Origin: a virus
DNA length: 33,230 nt
Direction: 5' to 3' (one strand)
IMG/VR virus record: IMGVR_UViG_3300024999_000269
Coordinates: 1 to 33,230 of that record
Part shown: positions 294 to 30,952 of the stretch, piece by piece
Numbering within the stretch: position 1 is the stretch's first letter
How the letters are laid out: each line of letters starts with the position of its first letter
Program-made: the position numbers and the translations under genes
The notes under the pieces: generated by a model
Told to the model about the DNA's origin: nothing
The model's database searches: none
What the model saw: the letters and a program-made list of their open reading frames with translations, nothing else

Positions 294-579
294 GCGAGTT
301 TGGAACGAAGTGGCGTACAAGCCTGGGGTCGAAGTGACTGTTGAGCCGATAGAGGGGGCCGCGCCTTCTATAAAGTCTGCGGCTAAGACGGTGCGCGAGA
401 ATTGGCAGCGTTGTGCTGAATGTGGCAAGGAGATTTGGTCTGAGTTCGGGAAGGAATATTATCATCTTCTTGCGTGTTCCAAGAGCAATGGGATTGGGTA
501 TTACGATGGTGAACGGACTCAGTGTTGTGGTAGGCCGATTAAGGAGCAGGAAGCGATTATGTCGAAGGTGAAGAAATGA
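280..579 (+). CDS. Small Cys-rich protein of unknown function
   Basis: A 99-residue product with a strong Shine-Dalgarno site (AAAAGGAGGTAGCAA) inside the end of the preceding gene. The N-terminal part is basic and the middle has CAEC (residues 45-48), followed later by a single Cys and a CC pair. This suggests one zinc-binding site. I do not recognise a family. It sits between a zinc ribbon and a recombinase with overlapping ends, so it is co-expressed with them. Confidence 0.65.
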   Translation: MSRSRRVWNEVAYKPGVEVTVEPIEGAAPSIKSAAKTVRENWQRCAECGKEIWSEFGKEYYHLLACSKSNGIGYYDGERTQCCGRPIKEQEAIMSKVKK

Positions 580-1160
580 CACGTCAAATGGCTCAAGCGC
601 AGAATCATCCGAAAAAGGACAGCATCATAGCATCGAAGCCGATTACGGATATGGCGAGGATAGCGAAGATCAAAGCTGACTTGTCTTCTAGGCCGCGTGA
701 CTTTGCTCTGTTCACCGTGGGGGTCAACACTGCGTTTCGTGCCTCGGACCTTTTGAGCCTCAAGGTTGGCGATGTGAGGGGTGACGTTATCGAGAAGCGC
801 GAGAAGAAGACTTCAAAGGTCAGGAAGTTTTATCTCAACAACACGATCAAGAAAGCGGTCGCGCCTTTGATCGCAGGGAGGGATGACGATGACTGGTTGT
901 TCGTCTCTGAGCGCGGTGGTGGGCCTCTGACTGTGCCTGCGTTTTCTCAGATGGTGAAGACGTGGTGTTTCAGGGCTGGTCTTAGGGGAGGGTATTCGGC
1001 TCATTCGTTGAGAAAGACCTGGGCAAGATACCAGTACGAGGCTGGTGAATCATTGACGATGATTTCTGATGCGTTGGGTCATGTGTCGGAGAAGGTGACG
1101 CGGGTTTATCTCGGCCTTCAGGTGGAAGATATGAAATCGATGTATATGAGGGAGATATGA
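576..1160 (+). CDS. Short tyrosine recombinase/integrase (catalytic domain)
   Basis: The 194-residue product is a tyrosine recombinase catalytic domain. The expected active-site set is visible: R55 (in FRASDLL), a Lys in the beta-hairpin (K78 or K81), H143-x2-R146 (HSLR), H169 (GH) and nucleophile Y178. Typical phage integrases are 300-400 residues with an N-terminal arm-binding domain and a SAM-like core-binding domain. Here only about 40 residues precede the catalytic domain, so DNA recognition must come from elsewhere or be minimal. The start ATG overlaps the upstream stop (ATGA), with AAGGTG as Shine-Dalgarno. It could integrate the phage, resolve dimers or invert a segment. No attachment site is recognisable nearby. 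Confidence 0.85.
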   Translation: MTRQMAQAQNHPKKDSIIASKPITDMARIAKIKADLSSRPRDFALFTVGVNTAFRASDLLSLKVGDVRGDVIEKREKKTSKVRKFYLNNTIKKAVAPLIAGRDDDDWLFVSERGGGPLTVPAFSQMVKTWCFRAGLRGGYSAHSLRKTWARYQYEAGESLTMISDALGHVSEKVTRVYLGLQVEDMKSMYMREI

Positions 1161-3519: not shown

Positions 3520-3654
3520 TTGAACAGAACAATCAGCATCCCAAAGCAGTGTGATGATAAATTGGTGAAAGAGAAAAAAGAAACTGGCCTTACGATTTCC
3601 GAAATTATCCGTCGGGCGCTCGACAACTATTTTCACGAACGGAGCAAAGCATGA
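3520..3654 (+). CDS. Ribbon-helix-helix (Arc/CopG-like) protein, copy 1
   Basis: A 44-residue product with TTG start behind ATAGGAGAATCTC. The fold signature is clear: a beta-strand near the start (RTISIP), helix A (residues 10-21), a turn at TGLT, and helix B (SEIIRRALDNYF, 27-38). It shares 27 of 44 residues with the copy at 8332. RHH proteins act as dimers that insert their strands into the DNA major groove, usually as repressors. The stop overlaps the ATG of the HNH gene (ATGA), tying their translation together. No toxin gene is next to it, so an antitoxin role is less likely. Confidence 0.85.
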   Translation: MNRTISIPKQCDDKLVKEKKETGLTISEIIRRALDNYFHERSKA

Positions 3655-4244
3655 TCGGGCGGAGATTCCATCGTCTTGTAGTGGTGTCTAAAGCTGAACC
3701 AGAAAAGCAGAGAACAAGATGGAATTGCGTTTGTGATTGCGGGAAAGACCATATAGTTAAAAGTAAGTACTTGTTAAACGGTGAGGTCAAGTCATGTGGA
3801 TGTTTAAAGTACGACGCCACAGCAAACCAGACGCATGGAATGAGCAATTCTCCAATTTACCATGTGTGGTTTCAGATGAAACAACGATGCAATAATGTCA
3901 ATAATACTGATTATTTTCTTTACGGTGGCAGAGGAATTACGGTTTGTGATAGGTGGAGTAAGTCGTTTGAAAATTTCTTCGAGGATATGGCTCCAGGCTA
4001 CAGTAAGGGGTTATCACTAGATAGAATAAACAATGACAAGGATTATTCTCCAGAAAACTGCCAGTGGGCAACACTCGAAACTCAAGCGAACAATCGCAGA
4101 AATAATGCCGTTATTGTGATGGACGGTGTGTCCAAGACTATGGCCCAATGGTCACGGCACCTTGGCATTAATTATTCCACCATAAGAAACAGGTGGAGAG
4201 TTGGCTTAACTCCAGAAAAAATCTTATGCAAAAAGGTGAGATAA
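3651..4244 (+). CDS. HNH homing endonuclease (AP2/HNH type) with C-terminal HTH
   Basis: A 197-residue product. The N-terminal third has a zinc-finger-like region (CVCDCGK near 26-32 and SCGC near 48-51). The nuclease core reads GLSLDRINNDKDYSPENCQW followed by AT-x3-Q-x2-N-x-R-R (about 119-148), the standard phage HNH signature. The C-terminal 35 residues (AQWSRHLGINYSTIRNRW) look like a helix-turn-helix or NUMOD-type specificity module. Such enzymes cut cassette-free alleles and spread their own gene by repair. It lies directly behind the RHH gene and interrupts a nuclease gene, which fits homing into a conserved target. Confidence 0.85.
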   Translation: MIGRRFHRLVVVSKAEPEKQRTRWNCVCDCGKDHIVKSKYLLNGEVKSCGCLKYDATANQTHGMSNSPIYHVWFQMKQRCNNVNNTDYFLYGGRGITVCDRWSKSFENFFEDMAPGYSKGLSLDRINNDKDYSPENCQWATLETQANNRRNNAVIVMDGVSKTMAQWSRHLGINYSTIRNRWRVGLTPEKILCKKVR

Positions 4245-8466: not shown

Positions 8467-8561
8467 TGTCTGACATCCCTTATGGTTATTGTCATTGCGG
8501 CTGCGGTATGAAAACGACTGTAGCCGGGCCAGAAATGGGCAGGTTAAGGGAGAGCCTATGA
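8466..8561 (+). pseudogene. N-terminal fragment of the HNH gene (frame-split)
   Basis: The 31-codon frame reads YGYCHCGCGMKTTVAGP, the zinc-knuckle start usual for this HNH subfamily, then runs out of register and stops. The expected continuation, RNGQVKGEPMRYI, is found in the -1 frame. A one-base loss near 8530-8540, a sequencing error, or a frameshift would explain this. The stop TGA overlaps ATG 8558, so the second part can restart. Confidence 0.55.
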
Positions 8562-9007
8562 GGTATATCCATAGCCATCATCCCAAAGTGCCACTAGAAG
8601 TAAGGTTTTGGAGCAAAGTCAATAAAACCGATACGTGTTGGGAATGGACTGGATATAAAGATCGTTATGGCATTTTTGGGATTGAAGGCAAAAATCTAAA
8701 AGCTCATAGAGTGTCTTGGGAAATTACTTTTGGGCCAGTACCGGAAGGCTTACACGTACTGCACAAGTGCGACAATCCCGGCTGTGTGAAACCAGACCAT
8801 CTTTTCCTTGGCACTCATACCGATAACATGAGGGATATGGTTGTGAAAGGTCGCGGAGGTCGCGCTAAATTGACGTTGGATGAAGTTCGAGAGATACGCA
8901 GGATAGGGCGCTCTGTAAAATCAAAGGTGATTGGAGCACAATACGGACTGTCTGAGTCTCAAGTATGCGCCATTCTCAGAAATGACCAGTGGGCTGCGTT
9001 GCAATGA
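8558..9007 (+). CDS. HNH endonuclease with C-terminal HTH, main part
   Basis: A 149-residue product, possibly restarted at ATG 8558 with its own Shine-Dalgarno (AAGGGAGAGCC). The HNH core is visible as a His in LKAHRVSW, then LHVLHKCDNPGCVKPDHLFL and GT-x-T-D-N-M-R-D-M, the H-N-H zinc-supported fold. The C-terminal segment LTLDEVREIRRIG followed by VIGAQYGLSESQVCAIL is a helix-turn-helix used for target choice. With the upstream fragment the full gene would be about 180 residues. If the N-terminal knuckle is needed, the enzyme is damaged. Confidence 0.8.
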   Translation: MRYIHSHHPKVPLEVRFWSKVNKTDTCWEWTGYKDRYGIFGIEGKNLKAHRVSWEITFGPVPEGLHVLHKCDNPGCVKPDHLFLGTHTDNMRDMVVKGRGGRAKLTLDEVREIRRIGRSVKSKVIGAQYGLSESQVCAILRNDQWAALQ

Positions 9008-19303: not shown

Positions 19304-22300
19304 ATGAAACGCGGCACTTTACCGATCATCGCAGCTTTTGGGATTATCGCCTGTGTTGAAATCCTCCCTCACGTTTGGGCAGGAGTCGCACTGCCGGCGA
19401 AGACTGATGCCAACAAGATCCAGGGGAAACGGGTCGAAGCTCCGACTGCTGGCGATGACAATGGTGCCTTGGTCTACATCAATGCATCGAGTGCCTACAA
19501 ACATCGGCCTAATGCGGCGGCGAGTGTCGCGGGGAAACTCGATGAAGCGACCTTTGCCGCGTATACCTCACAAGACAGGCTCCTGACTTCGATATTTGCC
19601 GCGTATACCTCGATTGAACGTGCTGGCGGGGCGGGAACATGGGGAAGCATTACCGGAACGCTGAGTGACCAGACGGACTTGAATGAGGCGCTTGGCAACA
19701 AGGTCGATACCTCAGTCTTCACCGCCTATACTTCCATCGACAGGTCGGGTGTCTCCGCTGAAACCTTTACAAATTACACAAGTCAGGACAGAGTGACGGT
19801 AACGACGTTTTCGCAATACACTGCTACAAACAGGTCATGGGGTACGATCACCGGGACGTTAAGCGACCAGACCGATCTTCAGAACGCGCTCAATGCGAAA
19901 CAGGCGACCGTAACCGGGGGAGCAACGACTATCACCGGGAGCGACCTCACTGCGAGTCGGGCGCTTGTTTCGAACACTTCAGGGAAAGTCGCAACGTCTT
20001 CTGTGACCTCGACTGAATTGAGCTATCTGAGCGGGGTAACGTCTTCAGTCCAGACGCAGTTTACCGGGAAGATAGGCACATCAGCTTCCTTTGGCGGCGA
20101 TGTCTCAGGGACGTATGGGGCCATTGTCGTAGGAGACGACACGCACAATCATACGTCTTCGACCATTCCTTCAAACTCATTTACGGCGGCAGGTGTAGTG
20201 ACTTCAGGGGCAGGAAACGCCTCAAAGGTCTGGAAGACTGATGCCTCAGGGAATCCGGCATGGCGGGATGACTTGACTGGTTCAAGTCCGACCTTCGACA
20301 CGGTGGGCGGGGGAACAAACACGTCTTCAACGATGACGCTTGGTTCTGGCGGGACGTTGACTTACTCAGGAACGGGCGTCGTCAATGCTAGCAAGTACAA
20401 GGGCGAAACGGGACCGAGTGCGGTTGAGTTCGCCTACCTTTCCGACCTCGAAAGCGCCATACTGGAAGTTAACGATGTGGTCAATAATCTGACGGCAGGG
20501 GGAACGGCTGTACCGTTAAGCGCGGAACAGGGTAAGGGGCTGAATACTGCTTTTGTCAATTACACTTCCACTGACCGGCTTACCAAAGCATCTTTCACTT
20601 CCTACACCTCCGCCCACAAAACCGCCGACGATCACCCCCAGTACCACACCGACGCGCGGGGGGATGCGCGGTATCCAGTAAAAGACGCACTGACCGTCAA
20701 TGTCATGGATTACATACCTTCCAATCTCCATGCTGGCATTTATGACCGCAGTGGGACAACTGACTTGACTGCATACATAAATACCGCCCTTGATGACGGC
20801 TATGTTTTCTTCCCTCCCGGCACTTACTACCACACCGGGGCGATTACTGTTGATGTATCGAAATCTGGCATTATCGGCGCGGCATACGGCGGCACTCGCT
20901 TTAAGTCTCCAAGTGTTATTACAAATGGAGCGATACAAGTAGGCGATTTTTCATGGTCAACTGGCATCGAATTTATAGAGCAAGCTCCTGAATACTCCGC
21001 GTCACTTTCTCAGTCAGGCACCACAATCACTGTCACTGCTACCGGCCACGGGGCAAAGGCTGGGGAAACCATATATCTACACGAAGCCGTAGGTATCACC
21101 ATCACCGAAGGGTATTACGCTGTTGCAACCGTGCCAACCGCTGACACTTTAACGGTTACGGCGGGGAGTTCTCAAACCGATACCGGGACAGCTTCTATGC
21201 ACAAGCGTCATGGGGTCAACTCTGCCTATTCGGCCAATGCACGATACAACCAGGTGGTAAAGGACATTGTTGTTGAATGCACTGCCGCCACAAAGACCGA
21301 TTCTATTGGCATCAACGTCCATTCTTCATGGTATCCGCTGGTGCAAAACGTCAAAGTTTATGGCTTCTTGCGTGGTATCAAAGCCAACTCTGTAGGGTTC
21401 AGCCTATTTGACAACCTCATTGCAGAGTGGGCTGATAATGACGGTGATTACTTCTCTCAGTTCGTCACTGACAAGACTATCGAAACAGTCCTCTGGCTGG
21501 ATGGCTCAACCGAAGCGCCCCCCGAAGGGTGGGCATGGTCAACCGGCATCGGGCCGCACAACATCTTTTCCAATATCAACGCCAAGAAGACCACTATTGC
21601 CGGAGTGTACGCAGCAGGAACCAACCTCGGCGACATAATCATCAACAACGTACATACGGCGCATACCTGCACCACGTCTGGATGTGGCGGGGGTGTTCTG
21701 TTTAGCAACGCAGGGGATGGCACTGTCAGTTATGCCAACAAGATATTGATAAGCAACGTAGCAACCGACCTAGGGGAGTTTGCTGTCAAGTTTGATGGTG
21801 GGGATACATGGTCGAATGTCACGGTTGCTGGGGTTATCCATACGGCGGATGTCGGTGTCGCAGGCCTTAATACTACGACAGTTAATGGTAAGACCAACCG
21901 CATTTATTACAACGCCGTGCAAGCACCTATGAGTTCAGTAAATAACAACATTCCTCAATGGGATGGTGAAGACGGGCATAGCTTGAAAAGCGGATTGAGT
22001 GTTGTTACCACTGTCGGCAGTCCCGGTTCCGACACCGCCATACCAACTGAAAAAGCAGTACGTACAGCAATCGGCGCGGGAGGGGCAGGCACTCCTGCCG
22101 GGTCTTCTGGTGATTATCAGATAAACGATGCCGGCTCTTTTGGTGGCGGAATTCTCAAACAGCTCGACAGTAACAGTATTGCTGTCGGCGCAGCATCGGT
22201 GATTTCGGAAGATACTAACCGCGCATACTTAGCCATAAAAGGCGGTGCTGGGGCCGGGGTGGTGGAGTTTCAGACTGCCGCCGCCGACGCTGATGGGGCA

Positions 22301-23533
22301 AGTATTGGCATGTTTCAGTTTTCCGACGGTGCATCTAATACTCGCGCTGTTGCCGTAGTTGGTTCGCAATACGGAGCAACAGCCAACAACCGTGGCGGCA
22401 GATTCAGCCTTTTTGCTAAGGAAAACGGCTCAAGCAACTTCGGAGAAACACTAAGGGCTATTTATGGGAAAGTGAAAATAGGGATTAATTCAGGTGCTCC
22501 TACCGACTTGGGAGTTCCTGATGAAGCCCTCGACGTTACAGGTAATGTCAAAATGTCCGGGAGCCTTACTGATGGGACAACCACAAAGACCGTCACGGAA
22601 CTTTGGAACAATGGCGGTGCTGTGAGCCTAGCTTCAATAGCTGCTGGCGGTACGGTTTCATGTTCGCATACCACTGTATTTATAACTAGCGGAGCAGCAG
22701 GGGCAGATACAACTTTACCGGCGGATTGCACTGCCGGGAAAATTATAACAGTGAAAAACAGTTCAGGGGCAGCCCAGGATATTATTGCGGCGAGTGGGTA
22801 CATAGATGATACGCCGGGGCTAGAGTGGCGCATTCCCTCAACAGGTACAGCTTCTTTTATCAGCGAAGGGGCTGCGGCAGGGTGGCAAGCTATAAAACAT
22901 CCTGTCCCTGACTGCGATAATGCGACCACCAGCAAACTCCTGTACGACGAAACTACCAAAACCTACACCTGCGGCACCGATCAAACCGGTGGTAATTGGG
23001 TAGCGACTGGCAGTGATGCGTACCTCTCAGGAAATGCTGGTGTGGGTACAACATCACCAATATTTTCTATTGAATCAAAGGGCGCAACGGCAGGTTCTGC
23101 GCAAATAGCCACCCGAGTTATCGGGGCCGACCTTGGAGCAGGGGGCGGGGGGGGGATAGTCATTCAGGGTGGCAACTCCAACGGTACAAACGGAATGCCC
23201 AAATCAGGGGAGCGTCTTGGATATGTGACCTTTGGTGCAAGGGATACATCAGGCTCACCGGCTAACAGAGCCTCCGGCGATATATACATGCTGGCAACCG
23301 AGGCGCAATCCACCACAGCATTAGGTGGCGATATGATTTTCCGCACAGTTCCCAACACCAGCACGACACGGACCGAGCGGATGCGGATAAAAGAAAATGG
23401 CGTTGTCCGTTTTGTCCCGATAGCTATCCCCGCAAGCTGTGAACTTGGAGACACCTACGTTAACAGCAGCGACAACAAAATGTATAGCTGCACCACCGCC
23501 GGGACACCAGGGAGTTGGACGGCACACTGGTGA
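19304..23533 (+). CDS. Large tail fibre / tailspike with pectin-lyase-like domain
   Basis: A 1409-residue product. Residues 1-26 are signal-like (KRG, hydrophobic, Cys17 in GIIAC), odd for a virion protein. Residues about 80-430 carry repeated F-x-x-YTS-x-D/E-R motifs and twice ITGTLSDQTDL, the trimeric-stalk style of tail fibres. Residues about 480-860 begin NVMDYIPSNLHAGIYDRSGT and FFPPGTYYHTGAI, the usual opening of phage pectin-lyase beta-helix depolymerases. The C-terminal third has GGDMIFRTVP and RTERMRIKENG, typical of fibre tips. It probably binds and may cleave host surface polysaccharide. Confidence 0.8.
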   Translation: MKRGTLPIIAAFGIIACVEILPHVWAGVALPAKTDANKIQGKRVEAPTAGDDNGALVYINASSAYKHRPNAAASVAGKLDEATFAAYTSQDRLLTSIFAAYTSIERAGGAGTWGSITGTLSDQTDLNEALGNKVDTSVFTAYTSIDRSGVSAETFTNYTSQDRVTVTTFSQYTATNRSWGTITGTLSDQTDLQNALNAKQATVTGGATTITGSDLTASRALVSNTSGKVATSSVTSTELSYLSGVTSSVQTQFTGKIGTSASFGGDVSGTYGAIVVGDDTHNHTSSTIPSNSFTAAGVVTSGAGNASKVWKTDASGNPAWRDDLTGSSPTFDTVGGGTNTSSTMTLGSGGTLTYSGTGVVNASKYKGETGPSAVEFAYLSDLESAILEVNDVVNNLTAGGTAVPLSAEQGKGLNTAFVNYTSTDRLTKASFTSYTSAHKTADDHPQYHTDARGDARYPVKDALTVNVMDYIPSNLHAGIYDRSGTTDLTAYINTALDDGYVFFPPGTYYHTGAITVDVSKSGIIGAAYGGTRFKSPSVITNGAIQVGDFSWSTGIEFIEQAPEYSASLSQSGTTITVTATGHGAKAGETIYLHEAVGITITEGYYAVATVPTADTLTVTAGSSQTDTGTASMHKRHGVNSAYSANARYNQVVKDIVVECTAATKTDSIGINVHSSWYPLVQNVKVYGFLRGIKANSVGFSLFDNLIAEWADNDGDYFSQFVTDKTIETVLWLDGSTEAPPEGWAWSTGIGPHNIFSNINAKKTTIAGVYAAGTNLGDIIINNVHTAHTCTTSGCGGGVLFSNAGDGTVSYANKILISNVATDLGEFAVKFDGGDTWSNVTVAGVIHTADVGVAGLNTTTVNGKTNRIYYNAVQAPMSSVNNNIPQWDGEDGHSLKSGLSVVTTVGSPGSDTAIPTEKAVRTAIGAGGAGTPAGSSGDYQINDAGSFGGGILKQLDSNSIAVGAASVISEDTNRAYLAIKGGAGAGVVEFQTAAADADGASIGMFQFSDGASNTRAVAVVGSQYGATANNRGGRFSLFAKENGSSNFGETLRAIYGKVKIGINSGAPTDLGVPDEALDVTGNVKMSGSLTDGTTTKTVTELWNNGGAVSLASIAAGGTVSCSHTTVFITSGAAGADTTLPADCTAGKIITVKNSSGAAQDIIAASGYIDDTPGLEWRIPSTGTASFISEGAAAGWQAIKHPVPDCDNATTSKLLYDETTKTYTCGTDQTGGNWVATGSDAYLSGNAGVGTTSPIFSIESKGATAGSAQIATRVIGADLGAGGGGGIVIQGGNSNGTNGMPKSGERLGYVTFGARDTSGSPANRASGDIYMLATEAQSTTALGGDMIFRTVPNTSTTRTERMRIKENGVVRFVPIAIPASCELGDTYVNSSDNKMYSCTTAGTPGSWTAHW

Positions 23534-23550
23534 TAACTGTAGGAGGTAAT

Positions 23551-23631
23551 ATGACGATAGGAATAATAGGCGTTTCCGTCCCACTGTTGGTATTTCTAGT
23601 TTACGTAATTATATCCTGCTTATTCCAATAG
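23551..23631 (+). CDS. 26-residue membrane micro-protein
   Basis: Perfect Shine-Dalgarno (TAGGAGGTAAT). The product is almost entirely one hydrophobic segment ending SCLFQ. Its position at the head of the lysis region suggests a holin-like or holin-modulating peptide. There is no homology to cite. Confidence 0.5.
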   Translation: MTIGIIGVSVPLLVFLVYVIISCLFQ

Positions 23632-23639
23632 CTCATAAA

Positions 23640-23672
23640 CCCCGCAAACGCCACCAGCTAGAGACGGCGGGG
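23640..23672 (+). other. Weak intergenic stem
   Basis: CCCCGC (23640-23645) pairs with GCGGGG (23667-23672) over a 21-base loop. No T run. Low significance. Confidence 0.25.
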
Positions 23673-23708
23673 ATGATACGAACTTCAAACACTGTGAATG
23701 GAGGTAAC

Positions 23709-23774
23709 ATGAAAAAGACCAAGCCGAGACCAAAACCAGCGCCTAAACCGAAACCCAAAACATACTACGCGTAA
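23709..23774 (+). CDS. 21-residue Lys/Pro-rich peptide
   Basis: ATG 23709 follows GGAGGTAAC. The peptide is made of K/R-P repeats (KPRPKPAPKPKPK) ending TYYA. Such peptides stay extended and basic. It may be a real micro-gene because the Shine-Dalgarno is strong, but function and conservation cannot be judged. Confidence 0.4.
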   Translation: MKKTKPRPKPAPKPKPKTYYA

Positions 23775-23784
23775 GGAGCCGCCT

Positions 23785-24015
23785 ATGCCACCAGAGCATC
23801 TTTGCAAGGAACACAGCGGCATCCTGATGTGGATGAAGATCAACGCCGTCCTCGGTACTGTCGCTGTCACTCTTCTTGGCTATTCCTCGTTCATTCAAGT
23901 GCCAAATTTGCGTTATGACATAGCCAAAGAACAGGCGCAGATGCAGGATAACTTGAACCGGGATATTCAAGCGATTAAGGACCGTATTTCGCGGCTGGAA
24001 GCGCAACTGAGATAG
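23785..24015 (+). CDS. Membrane protein with C-terminal coiled coil, holin candidate
   Basis: A 76-residue product behind AAGGAGCCGCCT. One transmembrane helix (about residues 16-37) is followed by a coiled coil (LRYDIAKEQAQMQDNLNRDI and IKDRISRLEAQL). This resembles small phage lysis-region proteins of the XhlA or class III holin type in arrangement, though the order TM-then-coil is reversed relative to XhlA. It lies four genes before the endolysin, which supports a role in lysis. Confidence 0.5.
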   Translation: MPPEHLCKEHSGILMWMKINAVLGTVAVTLLGYSSFIQVPNLRYDIAKEQAQMQDNLNRDIQAIKDRISRLEAQLR

Positions 24016-24024
24016 GAGGTAGCT

Positions 24025-24105
24025 ATGTGTCTCAACCCCTGTGAGCATCACCAACGTTACGGCTGCTGTCTCCGCGACTGCCCGAACTGGATACCGCCGA
24101 AATGA
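24025..24105 (+). CDS. 26-residue Cys/His-rich micro-protein
   Basis: TAGGAGGTAGCT precedes the ATG. The product holds five Cys and two His (MCLNPCEHHQRYGCCLRDCP), suitable for one zinc site. It overlaps the next gene by ATGA. Compare the similar 28-residue gene at 24748. Confidence 0.5.
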   Translation: MCLNPCEHHQRYGCCLRDCPNWIPPK

Positions 24106-24284
24106 AAGCCGTCCCTCTCGCCATAGCCGAAGCCGTCAACCTCTGCCACATGGCGCGGGAGTGGGCGTATGGTCCGGGAGAACAGCGGTGCATTGACCGG
24201 TGTGAGTTGTTGCTGCAAATGGCTGTTGACGAGCTATTGGAGATGAAGCGTGACGCTAAAAATGTTCCACTGCGAACATCATAA
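24102..24284 (+). CDS. Small helical protein near the endolysin
   Basis: A 60-residue product started by coupling at ATGA. It is amphipathic and helical (MAVDELLEMKRDAK), with three Cys (LCHM, RCIDRC). No known motif. It could be a lysis regulator by position only. Confidence 0.45.
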   Translation: MKAVPLAIAEAVNLCHMAREWAYGPGEQRCIDRCELLLQMAVDELLEMKRDAKNVPLRTS

Positions 24285-24328
24285 CTATGACAGATGGGTG
24301 CATTGTGGCTGGAAGGAGTGCAAACAGT

Positions 24329-24751
24329 ATGAGCAGAATAGACAGTCTCGAACCGGAGTTCGCAGAGAAAGTCAAAGCGTTGATAAAAGCAACGGAGATG
24401 GCGACGCAGCTTAAATGGATCATCACTTCTGGCCGGCGCACGATGGCGGAACAACTCAAGCTGTACGAGCAAGGGAGAACAGCACCGGGTAAGGTGGTTA
24501 CGAATGCGCGTCCCGGTTCATCCGCTCACAATTTTGGACTTGCCGCCGACCTTGCCCCTTTGCGAAGGGATGGCCGTATTTGGTGGGAAGCTCCTAAGTC
24601 GGTATGGCAGAAGATGGCGGATATTGCGCGGGAGATGGGCATGGTATCGGGCTTCTACTTCAAGACCATTTACGATGCACCTCATGTCGAGGATGACGGG
24701 TGGAAAACGGTACAGGCAAAGTGGAAGGCCGGGGAGATCCACGTAGCATGA
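24329..24751 (+). CDS. Endolysin, M15-type L-alanyl-D-glutamate peptidase
   Basis: 140 residues from ATG 24329, which has a good Shine-Dalgarno (GGAAGGAGTG); ATG 24287 in frame has none. The M15 metallopeptidase pattern is complete: TSGRR (33-37), the zinc motif S-x-H-x2-G-x-A-x-D (SAHNFGLAAD, H67 and D74) and a final zinc His in DAPHVED (H119). Such enzymes cut the peptide stem of peptidoglycan to free phage progeny, as in phage T5 endolysin. There is no signal peptide, so it needs a holin. Confidence 0.85.
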   Translation: MSRIDSLEPEFAEKVKALIKATEMATQLKWIITSGRRTMAEQLKLYEQGRTAPGKVVTNARPGSSAHNFGLAADLAPLRRDGRIWWEAPKSVWQKMADIAREMGMVSGFYFKTIYDAPHVEDDGWKTVQAKWKAGEIHVA

Positions 24752-24834
24752 CCTACTGCCCGTATCGCAGGCGTAACGGAGCGCATGGCATGGAGCCGTG
24801 CTGCAAGTATTGCCAATGGAGGGAGGAATTATAA
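24748..24834 (+). CDS. 28-residue Cys-rich micro-protein
   Basis: The ATG overlaps the endolysin stop. The product has CPYRRRNGAHG followed by CCKYCQW, a four-Cys, one-His cluster that could bind zinc. The last A of its stop is the A of the next ATG, so the two are coupled, and its end contains the strong Shine-Dalgarno of that gene. Confidence 0.45.
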   Translation: MTYCPYRRRNGAHGMEPCCKYCQWREEL

Positions 24835-26630
24835 TGCACCGTACAATCCGATATTGTTTGCTCATCCTGCTCATTCTCATCACCGGCAACGCCTGGGGAG
24901 CAAAATGCACATCAACGAAAACTGGCAACTGGTCAGCATTCGGCACATGGAGTTCCGCGACGTGTACCAACGCTTCCAAAGATGTTCCAGGTACAGGCAC
25001 ATTTGCCAACTACTCAGCTGTCGTGTCAACTGGACACACTGTAACAGCTGACCTAAGTGCAAACATCTACGCAACAGTGGTTGAGGGGCATCTACTTCAG
25101 GGGCCGGGAGTTACAACGTCACTGACTGCCTTGCTTACCATTGGCAACGGTGCAGGGAAGGACGGCACGTTCACTTTCGGTGCAGGTTCAACTCTAGCCA
25201 TGGGGGCAAATAACTTTGTTGTCAACAACGCCAATATTCGCAGCAATGCAACACCTAGCGCATGGGCGATTGTTACCGGAACTGGGGCTGTGACTTACGG
25301 GATCACAAATGTAAAGCAGTCGTGGCGGATCAGTTACATCAGTTGGCAAAATACAGGTACGCACTATTATCGTCTGCGGAGTGACGTTGGCGCGGTCACT
25401 ACCGAGTTTTTAGCAGACCATTGCGCCTGGCATGGTACGGCGGCAGTTACTATTGGCACCGGTAGCTACACACCAGCAACAACCCCCATCACAGTAAACA
25501 ACTCAGATTTCTATGACCTCACCGGAAATATTCTGTTTGGGGATACAGGTTTGCCCGGTTCAAACGTGCGTATGTGGAATCACAACACTATGCACCAAAC
25601 AACTACAAAACGCAGTCTGTCACTAGGATTAAGTATGACTACTGACGGTACTGTGTTTGACGGTTGGGATGTGCCTGCAACTTCTTATGGAGGCATCAGG
25701 CATAAAAATATATTTGTATCACACCGCATTGGTGCTTCTGGGGGTACTCATTTTGCGCTAATTGCCGCCACAGGTTTAGCGCCTATTTTGGAGGATTCAT
25801 ACTTTTACAGCCCAGCAACACAGCTTAATTCGCATGGTTTAGCGATTGGCGGGACAAATGCAGCCACTGCCACGGTACAGAATAGTATTTTTGAATATTG
25901 GGGAACCGAACCGAATCAAATATCTCCAGGTTCCAATCTGAATTTGGATTTATTGAATAATATAACAATTAGCCGCGCAGGATCATTTTTAACTATAGGC
26001 AGCACAACCGGGACCACTAACGTCAAAAACAATACTGTGTTTTTTGATGGAGGAACATACAGCAATGGATACGGAGGGCTTGTATTGGTTGAGAATAGCA
26101 ACCATACCGCCGCACTTAATATTACTAACAACATACAGGCCGTAGCAGTTAGCACAGGCACAAAAGACGGAGCGGTTGGGCTCAACAATGCCACGTATAC
26201 ATTTAACATCACGTCGTCAGACTACAATGTGTGGAATGGTATGTCTGCTGCGCTGGCATATTATAATGTTGACTCAGTAGGGGGCACAACCAACGACAGA
26301 TACGATATAAACCCGAGCTTTGTAGATTCTACACGTAGGTTTGCATTATGGGGTGCTACGCAAGGCACGGACGGAACAGACACTGCCGCTATCAATAAAT
26401 TGCTTGCAATCAACGGCTACAACGCCACAACAAAAACACAGAGCGACACGCCATCAGGCGTAACTGTTGCCGATCTTGTGGCATGGGTTCGTGCCGGTTT
26501 CACCCCCACCAACTCCGCGCTGTTAACCGCTGGCGAGGGCGGCACCTACATCGGCGCGGTGCAGCCGGTGATGGCTGGCGGTGCGGATAAACACAGGGGC
26601 TTTGAAATGGGCTTTGAGTTCTCGTTTTAA
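24834..26630 (+). CDS. Exported beta-helix (G8/pectin-lyase-like) protein
   Basis: 598 residues; the start is set by GGGAGGAATTATA. Residues 1-22 are a textbook Sec signal (HRTIRY, LLILLILITG, cleavage after AWG or AKC). The mature N-terminus (GNWSAFGTWSSATC, then VVSTGHTVT) resembles the opening of G8-like domains, and the rest runs as right-handed beta-helix coils with repeated Asn/Ser/Thr turns (NNITISRAGSFLTIGSTTG). It ends in GFEMGFEFSF, an aromatic-ended tail like outer-membrane-targeted proteins. A phage gene for a secreted beta-helix is unusual. It may modify the host surface or be a virion enzyme with a vestigial signal. Confidence 0.7.
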   Translation: MHRTIRYCLLILLILITGNAWGAKCTSTKTGNWSAFGTWSSATCTNASKDVPGTGTFANYSAVVSTGHTVTADLSANIYATVVEGHLLQGPGVTTSLTALLTIGNGAGKDGTFTFGAGSTLAMGANNFVVNNANIRSNATPSAWAIVTGTGAVTYGITNVKQSWRISYISWQNTGTHYYRLRSDVGAVTTEFLADHCAWHGTAAVTIGTGSYTPATTPITVNNSDFYDLTGNILFGDTGLPGSNVRMWNHNTMHQTTTKRSLSLGLSMTTDGTVFDGWDVPATSYGGIRHKNIFVSHRIGASGGTHFALIAATGLAPILEDSYFYSPATQLNSHGLAIGGTNAATATVQNSIFEYWGTEPNQISPGSNLNLDLLNNITISRAGSFLTIGSTTGTTNVKNNTVFFDGGTYSNGYGGLVLVENSNHTAALNITNNIQAVAVSTGTKDGAVGLNNATYTFNITSSDYNVWNGMSAALAYYNVDSVGGTTNDRYDINPSFVDSTRRFALWGATQGTDGTDTAAINKLLAINGYNATTKTQSDTPSGVTVADLVAWVRAGFTPTNSALLTAGEGGTYIGAVQPVMAGGADKHRGFEMGFEFSF

Positions 26631-26639
26631 GGAGGATTT

Positions 26640-27257
26640 ATGAAAATAGCGTTCCGCAAGAAGTGCCACACTATTTACAGCCGCATCATCTGCTTCTGGA
26701 CCTTTGGCAAATACTCTCATTCGGAACTTGTCTTCTCCGATGGCAAAAGTTTTTCCGCTGACGAGTCTGATGGTGGTACACGCTGGAAAGATTCCATTAT
26801 GGACCCTGACGAGTGGGACTTTATCGACATCCCTTGCAATAAGACGCAGGAGAAGGAAATTCGCAAGTTCTGTGAAGGGGAAGACGGTTTGAAATACGAC
26901 ATGATTGGTATCGGTTTTTCCTTCCTTCCAATTCCTATCGGCTGGCAGTCGGCAGAGAAATGGTTTTGCTCTGAAATATGCGCGGCGGCGTTGCAACAGA
27001 TTGGCTACCTGGTCGGCTATACGCCTTCAAGGATTAGCCCGAATAAGCTGTACTCCCTTCTCAAGAGTGAGCGGCGGTTGCGTATTAAGTCCTTGCCGCT
27101 GTCGTTAATCATTTTGCTGCTCACCGGCTGTGCCTCCGTAGCCTGTCCCAAGACTGTACAGGTTGAGGCAGGAACCGGCGTGCGCCATGAGGTAGGGGAA
27201 TCGCCAGTGAAAACCAACACGGCCATTGTACGGGCCACATGGGAGTTGAGGAAATGA
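26640..27257 (+). CDS. Permuted papain-like (YiiX/G6R-type) hydrolase with lipoprotein tail
   Basis: A 205-residue product behind AAGGAGGATTT. Residues 1-145 fit the permuted papain-fold family: H27 in YSHSELVF, KYDMIGIGF, and the nucleophile C110 in WFCSEICAA. Family members are thiol hydrolases or amidases on cell-wall or lipid substrates. Residues 147-164 (RIKSLPLSLIILLLTGC) are a lipoprotein signal with lipobox LTGC, in the middle of the chain. Either this is a fusion or an internal start at TTG 27078 makes a separate 59-residue lipoprotein. Confidence 0.7.
   Translation: MKIAFRKKCHTIYSRIICFWTFGKYSHSELVFSDGKSFSADESDGGTRWKDSIMDPDEWDFIDIPCNKTQEKEIRKFCEGEDGLKYDMIGIGFSFLPIPIGWQSAEKWFCSEICAAALQQIGYLVGYTPSRISPNKLYSLLKSERRLRIKSLPLSLIILLLTGCASVACPKTVQVEAGTGVRHEVGESPVKTNTAIVRATWELRK
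27078..27257 (+). CDS. Possible nested lipoprotein from an internal start
   Basis: TTG 27078 in the same frame as the hydrolase would give (M)RIKSLPLSLIILLLTGC, a complete lipoprotein signal, and a 42-residue mature part starting at Cys164 of the long product. The Shine-Dalgarno is weak (GAGCGGCGG). Outer-membrane spanins are often nested and of this size, but the mature part has few prolines. This is an inference. Confidence 0.35.
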   Translation: MRIKSLPLSLIILLLTGCASVACPKTVQVEAGTGVRHEVGESPVKTNTAIVRATWELRK

Positions 27258-27607
27258 GATACGCAATCGTTGCATTAATTCTTCTGGTGACTTCCGGCGC
27301 ATATGCCGAATGGGAAGGCTTTTCTTTTGCTAACGAAGGCTCTTATACATGCGAGTACGAAAAAGTGACGCGCCTTGTGAATGAAGGCGATGTCGCATGC
27401 AATCATGAGTGGGTTTATGAACCGGAAAGAATCGGTCCTAGCGCAGTGTATGCCGTCTATTGCTCCTGTGGTTGTCCCGATGAAGGGCGCAACAAGATAT
27501 GCAGGAAGTGTCTCAGGAAAGTCAATGAGAGCACTCAGGGCAGAATGGCGAATCCAAAGGAATCCGAATACAGCAAGCTGAACCGGCTGATTGGAGGCGA
27601 GAAATGA
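27254..27607 (+). CDS. Exported Cys-rich protein
   Basis: 117 residues from ATG 27254 (Shine-Dalgarno GAGG, overlap ATGA). Residues 1-18 form a Sec signal (MRYAIVALILLVTSGAYA). The mature protein has seven Cys, including CSCGC and C-x2-C (CRKC), so disulfides or a metal site are likely. It stands between the hydrolase and a lipoprotein, all overlapping, which points to one envelope-acting unit. The function is unknown. Confidence 0.65.
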   Translation: MRYAIVALILLVTSGAYAEWEGFSFANEGSYTCEYEKVTRLVNEGDVACNHEWVYEPERIGPSAVYAVYCSCGCPDEGRNKICRKCLRKVNESTQGRMANPKESEYSKLNRLIGGEK

Positions 27608-27762
27608 GATGGATCTTGATAGCAACACTCCTTGCCGGCTGCGCCTACAACTCTCAGACGGTCAATGCTTATGGAAGTCTCGTCTACTGTCACGGCACCG
27701 TTGATAAGCCTGTTGACGTGAGTACCGATTTCAAGGGCAACAAAGTAACCCCTCTACCGTAA
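27604..27762 (+). CDS. 52-residue lipoprotein, spanin candidate
   Basis: The start overlaps the previous stop. MRWILIATLLAGC is a short lipoprotein signal with lipobox LAGC; the mature part is 40 residues and ends DVSTDFKGNKVTPLP. Small phage lipoproteins with a DKPVDV-x-T element occur near lysis genes. It may be an outer-membrane spanin, although no inner-membrane partner is obvious next to it. Confidence 0.6.
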   Translation: MRWILIATLLAGCAYNSQTVNAYGSLVYCHGTVDKPVDVSTDFKGNKVTPLP

Positions 27763-27772
27763 AGGACAGACC

Positions 27773-28720
27773 ATGAACGAATCATTCAGATACGACAAGG
27801 GATTAGGAGATGCCGCGATTTATATGAGGCTCTTGAACAGTTCAGGCGAGTTCTACGACTTCCTGGCTACGTCATTTGTCTCTGTAGAAACCGCCAACTG
27901 CCAACTCCTGATGACGGAGTTTCCCGACAGTTCAACGGAACAGTCCTGGTACTATGTGACCTTTGATTCTCCTGCCGGGGGGCCGTTTGCTATTGAGATA
28001 GTCCTTGTCTCGACAAGCGAAGTCATCGGATACGATACGGTCTTCTCTTCGACTGAGGCAAGCGAAGCAGGGGAAACGTCTATTGGTGATCTTCTGGACA
28101 TCGTTATCGGAAGATTCGCTAAAATCAACAAGCCGCCGATGATTGATTTCCTGACTGCGGCCAACATGACGATGGACATCATCTACCGAAGACTCATGAC
28201 GAAGAAATCGGAACTCATCCTCGGGTCTTTCTCTCAGGCGGTGTTAGCGAATGCGTCAACCGTGACCCTCCCGACCGATTTCCAGGGGTTTTTTGAGCGT
28301 CCCTATATCTCAGGGTCAACTTGGCATCTCGACCCGTTACCGGGCGAATATCGAGCTTCCCTAACGACTGCCGGCAGACCTCAGTTTTACGAATTGAGGG
28401 GAACGACGATGACCCTGTTCCCGACGACGAGTGCTGCTTTGACTATTGTCGGTCAGTATTACAAAAAGCCGGTCAAGTTTACTGCCTTAACCAACGTCAT
28501 TCCTTACAACGGTCTTATCGATAACGTCCTTCAGGAAGGCATCATCGCCGTTGGTATGACCGGTATGGGCGCGTTACTCGATGCTCAGTTCCAGGCAATC
28601 ATGAGCAAGATGATTGACGAGATTCTTGCTTTCCGATCTCCGAGGACTGTCAGATTCCACTACACCTATGAGAACAGCCAACGTATGCGGGGCGCACACC
28701 CTGACTACTTCAACGTATGA
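27773..28720 (+). CDS. Putative neck/adaptor protein with N-terminal beta domain
   Basis: 315 residues behind AAAGGACAGACC. Residues 1-95 form a beta domain (YDKGLGDAAIYMRLLNSSGE, LMTEFPDSS, YYVTFDSPAGGPFAIEIVLV) of a kind attached to several phage virion proteins. The rest (IGDLLDIVIGRF, then FLTAANMTMDIIYRRLMTKK and VTLPTDFQGFF) looks like a podovirus head-tail adaptor: a helical bundle followed by a beta region with Tyr-rich PQFYEL. It lies just before the DUF6682 adaptor gene. Confidence 0.6.
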   Translation: MNESFRYDKGLGDAAIYMRLLNSSGEFYDFLATSFVSVETANCQLLMTEFPDSSTEQSWYYVTFDSPAGGPFAIEIVLVSTSEVIGYDTVFSSTEASEAGETSIGDLLDIVIGRFAKINKPPMIDFLTAANMTMDIIYRRLMTKKSELILGSFSQAVLANASTVTLPTDFQGFFERPYISGSTWHLDPLPGEYRASLTTAGRPQFYELRGTTMTLFPTTSAALTIVGQYYKKPVKFTALTNVIPYNGLIDNVLQEGIIAVGMTGMGALLDAQFQAIMSKMIDEILAFRSPRTVRFHYTYENSQRMRGAHPDYFNV

Positions 28721-28728
28721 GGTAACTA

Positions 28729-29376
28729 ATGGCGACGATTACCGCAGAATCAGTGATAAACAAAGCGCGGAAGATCCTCAATGATGCGGGGTCGGTGAGA
28801 TGGGATAACGCCGACTTATTGGGCTGGTTAAATTCCGGACAAAAGGAAATCGTCCTTTACAAGCCGAATGCGAATACCGAGACTGCCGTCATTACTCTGG
28901 TCGAGGGAAGCGTCCAGACGGTCACCGGGCTTCAGTTCATCAGGATCATCAGCAACGTCGCATCGAATGGAACGACGGCAACCAGCGTCCCAAGTCCGGT
29001 TGAACAGTCGGTCTTGGACGGACTCTATGCGAACTGGATGGCAGTGACGGCTAACGCGACCCCCAAATATTACTGCTTTGATAGGAAGCTGCTCAAGACG
29101 TTCTTCGTCTACCCGCCGCAACCTTCATCTCCCGGCAAGGTCAGAGTCCTTCAGTCGGCGACTCCTGCGGTGATTCTCATCGGAAATATTTCTTCAGCAA
29201 CGATTCTTGATGACATCTACGAGACACCGTTGATCGATTACATCGTCTATCGAGCCTTCTCCGAAGATACCGAAGTCATTGACGCAGCAAAAAGTGATGC
29301 GTTTTTTCAGAAGTTTGTCGCAGCAATGGGCGGTAAGGCTCAAGCCGAAACCATTGGAGAGATGAATGCGAATTAG
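28729..29376 (+). CDS. Head-tail adaptor, DUF6682 family
   Basis: 215 residues behind GAGGTAACTA. The opening ITAESVINKARKILND followed by VRWDNADLLGWLNSGQKEIV matches the DUF6682 phage adaptor signature (VRW-x-x-x-x-L-L-x-W-L-N-x-G-Q-x-E-I-V). Members sit below the portal ring and join the tail. The middle is beta-rich with KTFFVYPPQPSSPGKVRVL and the C-terminal helix holds IDYIVYRAFSEDTEV. Its end overlaps the next gene. Confidence 0.78.
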   Translation: MATITAESVINKARKILNDAGSVRWDNADLLGWLNSGQKEIVLYKPNANTETAVITLVEGSVQTVTGLQFIRIISNVASNGTTATSVPSPVEQSVLDGLYANWMAVTANATPKYYCFDRKLLKTFFVYPPQPSSPGKVRVLQSATPAVILIGNISSATILDDIYETPLIDYIVYRAFSEDTEVIDAAKSDAFFQKFVAAMGGKAQAETIGEMNAN

Positions 29377-30952
29377 GCTGAAGCCTTTTGGCGGGATCAT
29401 TCCGAAAGCCGACCCTCACTATTTACCTGACTCGGCGGCAGTGACGGCGCAGAACTGCAAATTCACGTCCGGTTCTCTGGAAGCGTGGAAGAATCCTTTG
29501 ACGGTGAACACGCCTTCGAAAGTCGGGACGAAGACCAGCATCTATCTCTACGAAGATCAATACTGGCTGCATTGGGTTGATCTGGATGTGAATGTCGCTA
29601 AAAGCCCTACAGCGACAGATGCGTATAAAAGGATTTACTGGACCGGCGACGGTGCTCCGAAGATGTCGGTCTTGGATGCGATAGTCACCGGAGGGACGGC
29701 CTATCCGAACAACTCCTACCTCTTGGGGGTTCCTGCTCCGGCAATGGCTCCTACTGTCTCGGTGGTCGGGAGTATTTCCGATCCTGACCCGACGCTTGTG
29801 GAATCTCGGACCTACGTCTATCGGTACGTCTCGGCCTATGGTGAAGCCGGTCCTCCGTCCTCTGCTTCCGTAACGGTTGATGTAGCTCCCGGTCAGAGCG
29901 TCGACATTACGAACATGAGCGTGGCCCCTGTCGGGAACTACAACATAGCGACGAAGGAAATCTTCCGCTCCAATACGGGAAGTTCCGATACAGCCTATCA
30001 GTTGGCCGGTTCAGTCGCAGTGGCGACAACGACCTTCTCAGACACGGTAGACTCAGCCGACCTGGGTGAAGTATTGGATAGTCTTTTGTGGGACGTTCCG
30101 CCGACTGACTTGAAAGGGTTAATTGCTCTCCCAAATGGTTGTCTCGCCGGCTACTCAGGAAATGAACTTTGCTACTCAGTCGCCTATCAGCCTCATGCGT
30201 GGCCGTTGAATCAGAGATGGCCCGTCTCCGACGAGATCATGGGCATCGGGGCGTATGGGATGACTGTCTTGGTAACGACCAACGGTGCTCCCCGCATTGC
30301 AACTGGTCAAGACCCGACAGACGTGACGATTGAGAGACTTGAGAACGGTTATGCCTGCACCTTAAAACTCGGTGTCGTGGACATGGGTTACGCCGTCGCC
30401 TATCCTTCGACCGGAGGCTTGATGTCTGCCGGGGTCAATGGGGTGGAACTGATTACCAGGGATATTCTTTCCAAAGACGACTGGCAAGCGTTGGGACTGA
30501 CAAAAGCCTACTTCTACGGGGGGCTGTATATCGGTTTCGGGACAACGACTTTCATCTTCAATCCCGCTACCAAAGACCTGGCGACTCTCTCCGGAATAAC
30601 CGCGACGGCTGGTTATCATGACCCGGCGACTGGCGAACTCTATCTCATGGTGGGGAGCAACATCGTCAAGTGGGATGCCGGGGTGGGGTATCTGACCTAT
30701 ACCTGGAAATCGAAACCGTTTGTCTCTGAGAAACCGATCAATATGAGTTGCGCAAGAGTCTATGCCGACAGTTACCCGGTGACGCTGAAAGTCTACGTAG
30801 ACGGGACTTTGAAGCATACACAGACCGTCGCCAATAACCTGGTCTTCCGCCTGCCTTCAGGCTTTCGTGGCACTGAAATCTCGGCGCAAGTGGAAGGCAC
30901 TGTCAACGTCTATGCGGTGGACATTGCCGAAAGCGTGAGTGAGATGAAATGA
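29366..30952 (+). CDS. Tail hub / nozzle-like protein
   Basis: 528 residues starting at ATG 29366 inside the previous gene. RLKPFGGIIPKADPHYLPDS and AVTAQNCKFTSGSL at the N-terminus match the phage tail proteins that follow DUF6682 genes (P22 gp10-like or nozzle group). An Ig/FN3-like insert (SRTYVYRYVSAYGEAGPPSS) is present near residue 150, followed by beta-propeller-like repeats. It probably forms the short tail barrel. The stop overlaps the next ATG. Confidence 0.65.
   Translation: MRIRLKPFGGIIPKADPHYLPDSAAVTAQNCKFTSGSLEAWKNPLTVNTPSKVGTKTSIYLYEDQYWLHWVDLDVNVAKSPTATDAYKRIYWTGDGAPKMSVLDAIVTGGTAYPNNSYLLGVPAPAMAPTVSVVGSISDPDPTLVESRTYVYRYVSAYGEAGPPSSASVTVDVAPGQSVDITNMSVAPVGNYNIATKEIFRSNTGSSDTAYQLAGSVAVATTTFSDTVDSADLGEVLDSLLWDVPPTDLKGLIALPNGCLAGYSGNELCYSVAYQPHAWPLNQRWPVSDEIMGIGAYGMTVLVTTNGAPRIATGQDPTDVTIERLENGYACTLKLGVVDMGYAVAYPSTGGLMSAGVNGVELITRDILSKDDWQALGLTKAYFYGGLYIGFGTTTFIFNPATKDLATLSGITATAGYHDPATGELYLMVGSNIVKWDAGVGYLTYTWKSKPFVSEKPINMSCARVYADSYPVTLKVYVDGTLKHTQTVANNLVFRLPSGFRGTEISAQVEGTVNVYAVDIAESVSEMK

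Follow-up and report, generated by a model that had tools for sequence, protein, structure and literature searches.

The uncultivated virus record IMGVR_UViG_3300024999_000269, taken here over its whole 33,230 bases (the window), carries on its + strand a cluster of genes with export signals, among them a hydrolase gene (26640-27257, 205 residues) whose open reading frame (ORF) runs past the enzyme domain into the signal sequence of a second, exported protein. In our reading, to which we give a probability of roughly 0.5, the region is a mosaic cassette where the tail-fibre genes meet the lysis genes, and a putative lipid-type enzyme has gained downstream signal sequences as membrane anchors, akin to those of the HRASLS enzymes. 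The enzyme with its exchangeable exported tails is a new form of a known enzyme family. The original prediction, made from the letters of the window alone, had seen here four consecutive, overlapping genes with signal peptides or lipoboxes that together looked like one host-envelope remodelling unit.

Passenger exchange downstream of the enzyme

The hydrolase had been described as containing an internal lipobox. The motif LTGC is indeed present at residues 161-164, within the in-frame segment LRIKSLPLSLIILLLTGC (27078-27131, + strand; mean Kyte-Doolittle hydropathy 2.37 over 15 residues) that ends with Cys164 (27129-27131). However, it lies outside the enzyme and belongs to the signal sequence of a second protein joined in frame, because the passengers behind the enzyme are swapped between relatives, because the lipoprotein joined to it in the window, LipA (predicted mature form CASVACPKTVQVEAG, 27129-27254, + strand), is encoded separately, from its own start, in loci L006 and L013, and because the join in locus L011 falls inside a signal peptide.

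Across the 12 closest relatives (loci L002-L013), the enzyme frame runs into LipA in L002-L005, as in the window, into a type I signal and a helical Cys protein in L006-L008 (252 residues in total), and in L011 into the Cys-rich protein, which the window encodes separately. The L011 join can be traced within the signal peptide, the free form in L013 reading MKYIIVALLLLVTTGAYA and the fused form LPLSLVALLLLVSTGAYA, each followed by G at the cleavage site. The tail of L012, an enzyme that is 67% identical and lies outside the best 80 of the 485 viral relatives found, is a lipoprotein like the 52-residue lp52 of the window (40% identity, E-value 7e-8). L009 and L010 have a TGA stop directly after RIKSLPLS, just before the hydrophobic segment, and L013 is devoid of the hydrolase.

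Among the loci examined the tail is restricted to the clade of the window and L012. When the best 80 of the 485 viral relatives were scored, a hydrophobic tail was found in eight (205-267 residues; mean Kyte-Doolittle 2.19-2.56 over 15 residues), all of them within the window's clade of 10 loci; the remaining 72 end 121-171 residues from the start of the match without such a tail. Counted as distinct C-termini, 4 of 57 are hydrophobic, the other 53 scoring at most 0.99 or being too short to score. No signal-like tail was found at any of the 58 scored bacterial loci (of 59): most end within 15 residues past the measuring point, and the maximum of 1.88 comes from a single long extension whose sequence is unlike a signal.

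Both the enzyme and the lipoprotein are under purifying selection in one continuous frame. Between the window and L003, the proportions of nonsynonymous and synonymous differences (pN/pS) are 0.031/0.487 in the enzyme, 0.280/0.534 in the hydrophobic segment and 0.053/0.347 in the lipoprotein, a pattern expected if two constrained domains flank a variable signal sequence; the LipA fusion is the one for which selection on the two halves was measured. The in-frame joins of a probably cytoplasmic enzyme to several exported proteins amount to a natural experiment on whether long internal signals can be processed by bacterial signal peptidases, and they inform how phages assemble envelope-targeting genes, with both halves under selection in the one case measured.

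The better general reading is that enzyme and passenger would be made as one polypeptide, because L003, L006 and L011 have no suitably placed start codon: any ATG, GTG or TTG there lies far upstream, inside the hydrophobic core or at its margin, which counts against internal starts in these loci. An internal start as the general source of the lipobox was rejected, the candidate codons being weak and not conserved. An assembly error was likewise rejected, as the LipA fusion is present in the window and in four contigs from three metagenomes and the helical-protein fusion in three contigs from three metagenomes; the L011 and L012 fusions are found in one contig apiece. We infer, rather than observe, the direction of change between the fused and the separate state. 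Among the open-access papers searched, no title or abstract mentions enzyme-exported protein fusions of such kind, which is no proof that none is in print.

The enzyme domain

The first 150 residues of the hydrolase (26640-27089, + strand) are predicted from the alignment and a structural model to be a circularly permuted NlpC/P60 protein with a YiiX/LRAT-like fold. Over 30 aligned rows Tyr25, His27, Glu29, Tyr86, Cys110, Glu112, Pro134 and Leu137 are invariant and Ser39 is nearly so; the order of the catalytic residues, His27 before Cys110, is that of a permuted papain-like core, and Tyr25 and Ser39 are candidates for the active-site Tyr and the third polar residue. Both this His-before-Cys order and an invariant Tyr two residues before the His are shared with permuted NlpC/P60 proteins. 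The Y-x-H spacing and the polar residue 12 positions after the His are features that we take H-REV107 to have as well.

The AlphaFold2 model has a mean predicted local distance difference test score (pLDDT) of 83.6; over the first 15 blocks of ten residues, 13 score 90 or above and the remaining two 69 and 83. Foldseek with this predicted model returned 3kw0 and 2if6 at probability 1.00, with E-values of 3e-3 to 9e-3 (the best 3.3e-3 and none at or below 0.001). VIA comparisons of the model's first 150 residues gave Z 13.9 against YiiX of E. coli (2if6; root-mean-square deviation 2.4 over 128 aligned residues) and, with the same model, Z 13.3 against BcPPNE of Bacillus (3kw0; 2.7 over 133), with weaker matches to the type VI secretion system effector TseH (Z 9.0) and human H-REV107/HRASLS3 (Z 8.1). 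The fold of YiiX, BcPPNE and TseH would thus be shared over residues 1-146 of the hydrolase as modelled. At the level of sequence, the first 153 residues match PHROG 1128 (E-value 1.5e-35), searches of Pfam and NCBIfam returned no match to the hydrolase, and a PDB profile search recovered 3kw0 only weakly (E-value 0.12).

We infer a lipid-type enzyme, rather than one directed at the cell wall, because of the fold match combined with the known function of the permuted NlpC/P60 group, members of which are lipid-acting according to published accounts (PMC12994826, PMC7387801, PMC3142127). A fatty acid occupies the active site of YiiX, whose substrates were suggested to be N-acylated proteins, such as lipoproteins (PMC3142127); LnsA of the same group is required for lipoprotein N-acylation in Staphylococcus (PMC7387801); and Tox-Act1, likened here by the description in its paper only, is a phospholipase (PMC12994826). 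The PHROG 1128 label, 'enoyl-CoA hydratase/carnithine racemase-like', does not fit this fold, which points instead to lipids or lipid-modified proteins and gives the family a testable chemistry.

What sets the window enzyme apart from the permuted NlpC/P60 proteins is that it has no N-terminal signal and that its C-terminus is joined to an exported protein. The LnsA of Staphylococcus aureus, likened by description only, is likewise a YiiX-like enzyme, with a predicted signal peptide and a partner, LnsB (PMC7387801), whereas the window enzyme is fused to a lipoprotein and would be cytoplasmic if the topology proposed below holds. Three standalone phage proteins of phrog_1128, from the Moraxella Mcat phages, Pasteurella Pm86 and Pseudomonas pAN, have the same domain at 32-34% identity and, unlike the window ORF, end at 142-151 residues with no hydrophobic tail. 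In a Pseudomonas fluorescens genome (locus L147, 4001-4945), the same permuted domain is fused to a Cell Wall Hydrolase (Pfam Hydrolase_2, E-value 1.7e-17).

Proposed mechanism and the evidence against it

In this phage clade the enzyme frame extends beyond the point at which L009 and L010 stop and enters the signal sequence of the next small exported protein downstream, which differs among the phages. We propose that the 150-residue enzyme domain would remain cytoplasmic, and the basic RRLRIK stretch together with the borrowed hydrophobic segment would insert into the inner membrane with N-in/C-out topology, tethering the enzyme to its lipid substrate as the C-terminal hydrophobic anchor does for HRASLS enzymes. 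The passenger would be displayed in the periplasm and could be freed by signal peptidase I or II; in the window, LipA would be released to the outer membrane if the host signal peptidase II cleaves at the lipobox. The Cys-rich protein and lp52 would be exported separately, their translation being coupled. The HRASLS/PLAAT proteins, weaker fold matches than YiiX or BcPPNE, likewise combine a permuted NlpC/P60 core with a hydrophobic segment at the C-terminal end, and the activity of HRASLS3 requires its C-terminal hydrophobic domain (PMC4624172). The HRASLS anchor is a plain C-terminal domain, whereas the window enzyme would be held by a signal sequence that includes a cleavage motif and leads into a passenger.

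A more elaborate possibility is a true polyprotein, in which a cytoplasmic lipid enzyme (a phospholipase or a lipoprotein acyl-transferase or amidase) and an exported passenger would be made as one chain, threaded through an internal signal into the inner membrane and split by host signal peptidase I or II. Recombination within signal sequences or at stop/start junctions would swap the passengers between phages, and the enzyme would weaken or re-acylate the host envelope. We regard this full scheme as rather improbable.

Several points weigh against the anchored-enzyme reading. Enzymes without an anchor occur in the same clade (L009 and L010) and at most other loci, and the anchor is not essential to the family because the standalone relatives lack one; fusion may have recurred as a side effect of deletions that was tolerated rather than selected. 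The contigs with fusions derive from four metagenomes whose accession numbers are close, and the independent fusions may number only two, one at the LPL[ST]L join and one in L012. Internal initiation is possible in the window and L002, where a TTG codon at residue 147 gives MRIKSLPLSLIILLLTGC, and in L012, where a GTG at 151 follows GGGGAG. The tail counts cover the best 80 of the 485 viral relatives, and fusions may occur among the other 405.

The gene neighbourhoods point in the same direction. We scanned 123 neighbouring genes of 45 more distant relatives (122 of 180 listed neighbours, with the L147 fusion added by hand), and the families considered are those listed, 25 of 114 for PHROG and 25 of 38 for Pfam. 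The commonest of these are tail-fibre and tail-fibre-assembly families, with 13, 12 and 10 members. The one PHROG lysis family among those listed is the endolysin PHROG 894, with three members, and the Pfam lysis families are Peptidase_M15_3 (3) and Muramidase, Phage_lysozyme, Hydrolase_2, PG_binding_1, CHAP and GTA_holin_3TM (1 each), the Hydrolase_2 entry being the hand-added fusion. A lysis-time role for the enzyme is not favoured because tail-fibre neighbours outnumber lysis families.

The exported neighbours and a possible lysis or exclusion role

Export signals were scored with a simple heuristic of our own for the n-, h- and c-regions, not with SignalP. Applied to 43 window genes of 50 residues or more, chosen by hand, it marks five as type I or II (starting at 2283, 19304, 24834, 27254 and 27604), the last three of which fall in this cluster; the control set of other ORFs of at least 50 residues gave 7/138 type I and 0/138 type II. 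The internal lipobox of the hydrolase ORF scores as type II once its segment is taken alone with a Met added in front. On this footing, all four of the signals or lipoboxes originally described are present. The placement of the cluster after the endolysin also holds, the M15 endolysin lying at 24287-24751 on the same + strand. The claim that the genes overlap each other is borne out for the last three, which share two 4-nucleotide overlaps, but not for the 598-residue gene and the hydrolase, which are separated by a 9-nucleotide gap. The coordinates were right overall; for the Cys-rich gene alone, 27254 is a more likely start than 27239.

The Cys-rich exported protein (27254-27607, + strand; 117 residues, in an ORF extendable to 27239) opens with MRYAIVALILLVTSGAYA, a signal peptide with its cleavage site between AYA and E, and its seven Cys are invariant over six aligned rows, as befits its original description. 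Its relatives, at six loci in one search and ten in another, are all on contigs that also bear the hydrolase or LipA. The 52-residue lipoprotein had also been correctly recognised: lp52 (27604-27762, + strand) opens with MRWILIATLLAG before its Cys, in a lipobox LAGC, and differs from four relatives by 12-18 synonymous and 1-4 nonsynonymous changes, which indicates purifying selection. The sequence GAAATGAGAT forms the stop/start overlap both of the hydrolase-LipA frame with the Cys-rich gene (27251-27260, + strand) and of the Cys-rich gene with lp52 (27601-27610, + strand), these being the two copies observed in the window against 0.07 expected.

Small lipoproteins of about 40 mature residues after an endolysin are what a plain lysis cassette with two-component spanins would contain, as in the Rz/Rz1-type systems, with which the window has small lipoproteins in a lysis neighbourhood in common. 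LipA or lp52 would then be the o-spanin, the i-spanin would be a 76-residue protein with one transmembrane segment (23785-24015, + strand) or an uncleaved Cys-rich protein, and the fusion would be incidental. The 76-residue protein has a C-terminal heptad-like segment and looks by eye holin-like or like a short i-spanin, either of which it could be; searches of Pfam and PHROG returned no family match for it. With either lipoprotein it would contribute an estimated 80 or so periplasmic residues, against a described minimum of 62 (PMC6139136), and in L003, which has no 598-residue gene, only about 1.3 kb separates its homologue from LipA. In the window, however, its gene precedes the endolysin and lies about 3 kb from the lipoproteins, where the widest separation of i- and o-spanin genes described is about 1 kb (PMC6139136). 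The Cys-rich gene does share a stop/start overlap with lp52, but its product keeps the AYA cleavage site in 6/6 rows, and it is absent from L002 and fused in L011. LipA alone matches PHROG spanin families at E-values of 0.1 or worse (Rz-like spanins at 0.1 and 0.16), and the fused protein matches phrog_11621 at 0.026, all weak matches that begin in, and mostly cover, the signal sequence; lp52 has no match to PHROG spanin families. By eye, LipA and lp52 have no hydrophobic C-terminal stretch and so differ from a unimolecular spanin, with its lipobox and C-terminal transmembrane segment; and, unlike in Rz/Rz1 systems, no clear i-spanin partner or significant family match accompanies the lipoproteins of the window. 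We consider a plain spanin cassette unlikely; LipA and lp52 may be o-spanins. The original proposal that the region is more than a plain spanin pair is reasonable to this extent, because it includes an enzyme with the predicted fold of the lipid-acting permuted NlpC/P60 proteins.

The exported proteins could instead alter the host surface after infection, as a superinfection-exclusion or surface-conversion module in which the hydrolase would modify lipids or lipoproteins to the same end. The LipA of L013 weakly matches the Cor superinfection-exclusion family phrog_1119 (E-value 0.0021, residues 11-33), though this match covers essentially the lipobox alone. Other phages with the enzyme carry exported proteins before an endolysin, such as the 605-residue Beta_helix/lipobox protein of L109 and the 269-residue protein of L111 (on the reverse complement), and a tyrosine-recombinase-like ORF at window positions 576-1160 suggests by eye a temperate phage. 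Yet these exported proteins are by eye not conserved among the phages, the 598-residue protein being found at 0/191 loci, and we hold such a module to be improbable.

The exported products do not constitute the single unit originally envisaged: the 598-residue gene is in none of the 191 fetched loci, and the Cys-rich gene, LipA, the hydrolase and lp52 are each absent somewhere. From these comparisons they appear to be an interchangeable assortment. The Cys-rich gene is absent from L002, which has a single copy of GAAATGAGAT against the two of the window, the outcome expected of recombination between short repeats; L011 is devoid of LipA; and L009 has, in place of lp52, what is by eye a two-helix membrane protein. 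The L011 phage has no recognisable copy of the adaptor protein of the window and its other virion genes differ by eye; therefore, the cassette appears to pass from one phage lineage to another. In L013 (3404-3757), a DUF1353-like protein (Pfam E-value 4.6e-4, under the curated cut-off) replaces the hydrolase directly 5' of LipA; the junction between the two, GAATGGCATGTTTTAG, recurs in L009, and GATGGCATGTTTTAG recurs in L006.

The 598-residue and fibre-like proteins

The 598-residue protein (24834-26630, + strand) is Thr/Gly/Asn-rich and found in this contig only, in our searches of relatives. Of its description as an exported beta-helix protein, the exported-type N-terminus stands, with a strong signal sequence, MHRTIRYCLLILLILITGNAWGA. 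The beta-helix is not confirmed: Pfam, PHROG and NCBIfam searches gave no match, a single-sequence AlphaFold prediction reached a pLDDT of 30, and the hydrophobicity autocorrelation stayed within 2 standard deviations of shuffles at lags 1-8. By tblastn it is absent from 191 of 191 fetched loci, and neither a pattern scan of viral contigs nor the phages yielded a relative, on which grounds it was rejected as a conserved member of the cluster. A likeness to the tail-fibre protein, with E-values down to 2e-4, was seen only without composition correction and was discarded, since it is gone with that correction. In our view it is probably an exported accessory insert; its gene lies between a 28-residue Cys-rich ORF and the enzyme, which adjoin in L002, L003 and L006.

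A fifth export candidate, not listed in the original prediction, is the 1409-residue tail-fibre-like gene (19304-23533, + strand; PHROG 25379 tail protein, E-value 2.3e-11). Its first 34 residues are hydrophobic, resemble a signal sequence and are nearly constant among relatives, with 0-1 nonsynonymous and 2-4 synonymous differences in five comparisons (L006 and L008 being the same sequence); this selection test is weak because there are only 2-4 synonymous differences. This N-terminus (window 19304-19405), which is conserved in the clade, has an acidic residue within its hydrophobic stretch. PDB sequence searches with the 598- and 1409-residue proteins gave nothing useful.

These two proteins might be virion tail parts whose hydrophobic N-termini are assembly anchors rather than Sec signals. 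The PHROG 25379 match of the larger protein favours this, as does the presence in BcepMigl and PEp14 of annotated tail fibres, a pectin-lyase-like protein and a depolymerase near the phrog_511 homologue. However, only 3 of 107 annotated genes entered from seven cultivated relatives score as type I (two BcepMigl tail fibres and the Rz of CF418P1), the two fibres (MALKLSNN...) being in our judgement false positives of the heuristic, and the 598-residue protein has textbook n- and h-regions. We think this explanation very improbable. Among the papers searched, titles and abstracts on podovirus tail-fibre signal peptides and on phospholipases with spanins contained nothing useful.

In other enzyme-bearing phages an exported protein lies between fibre-like and endolysin-like genes, roles assigned partly by eye: L109 has one of 605 residues, L111 one of 269 and L110 one of 118. 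That of L109 (11449-13266) has a strong lipobox, FTLVG before the Cys, and a Beta_helix match just under the cut-off; by eye it sits between a tail-fibre-like gene and an amidase-like endolysin. A 132-residue protein, exported by the heuristic, follows an 1815-residue gene in L115 (17826-18224), on the 61.8-kb relative G001.

Genomic setting

The gene cluster is on the + strand throughout, in the order 1409-residue tail-fibre-like gene, 76-residue one-transmembrane gene, M15 endolysin, 598-residue exported protein, hydrolase, Cys-rich exported protein, lp52, two SU10-adaptor-like genes and a phrog_511 virion protein. The endolysin is an M15 (VanY) peptidase (Pfam VanY, E-value 7.9e-10; PHROG 2649 endolysin, E-value 3.7e-27), and the three virion genes 3' of the cluster span 27773-30952. 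The phrog_511 protein has matches in 159 phage records (104 of Vibrio), at no more than 34.5% identity among the matches listed, Lessievirus BcepMigl included. The window comes from a tailed phage, and its phrog_511 and adaptor genes are similar to their counterparts in podoviruses of the Lessievirus type. A near-identity DNA search of the phage collection with window positions 20000-30000 gave no match. PADLOC found no defence-system match among five proteins, on which ground a defence-system reading was rejected, and a contig scan with a 528-residue protein returned nothing informative.

The 28-residue Cys-rich ORF (24748-24834, + strand; CX13CCX2C) lies between the endolysin and the 598-residue gene, and its counterpart is immediately 5' of the hydrolase in L002, L003 and L006. 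It is one of three tiny ORFs, the others having 21 residues (23709-23774, MKKTKPRPKPAPKPKPKTYYA) and 26 residues (24025-24105), the latter also Cys-rich. ORFs of the MKKTKPRPKPAPKPKPKTYYA kind recur in L003, L009 and L013, and Cys-rich counterparts in L002, L003, L006, L009 and L013. Elsewhere in the window, the tyrosine-recombinase-like ORF is short and was recognised by eye from AHSLRKTWARYQYEAGESLTMISDALGH, and two ORFs, at 3651-4244 and 8555-9007, resemble by eye HNH homing endonucleases.

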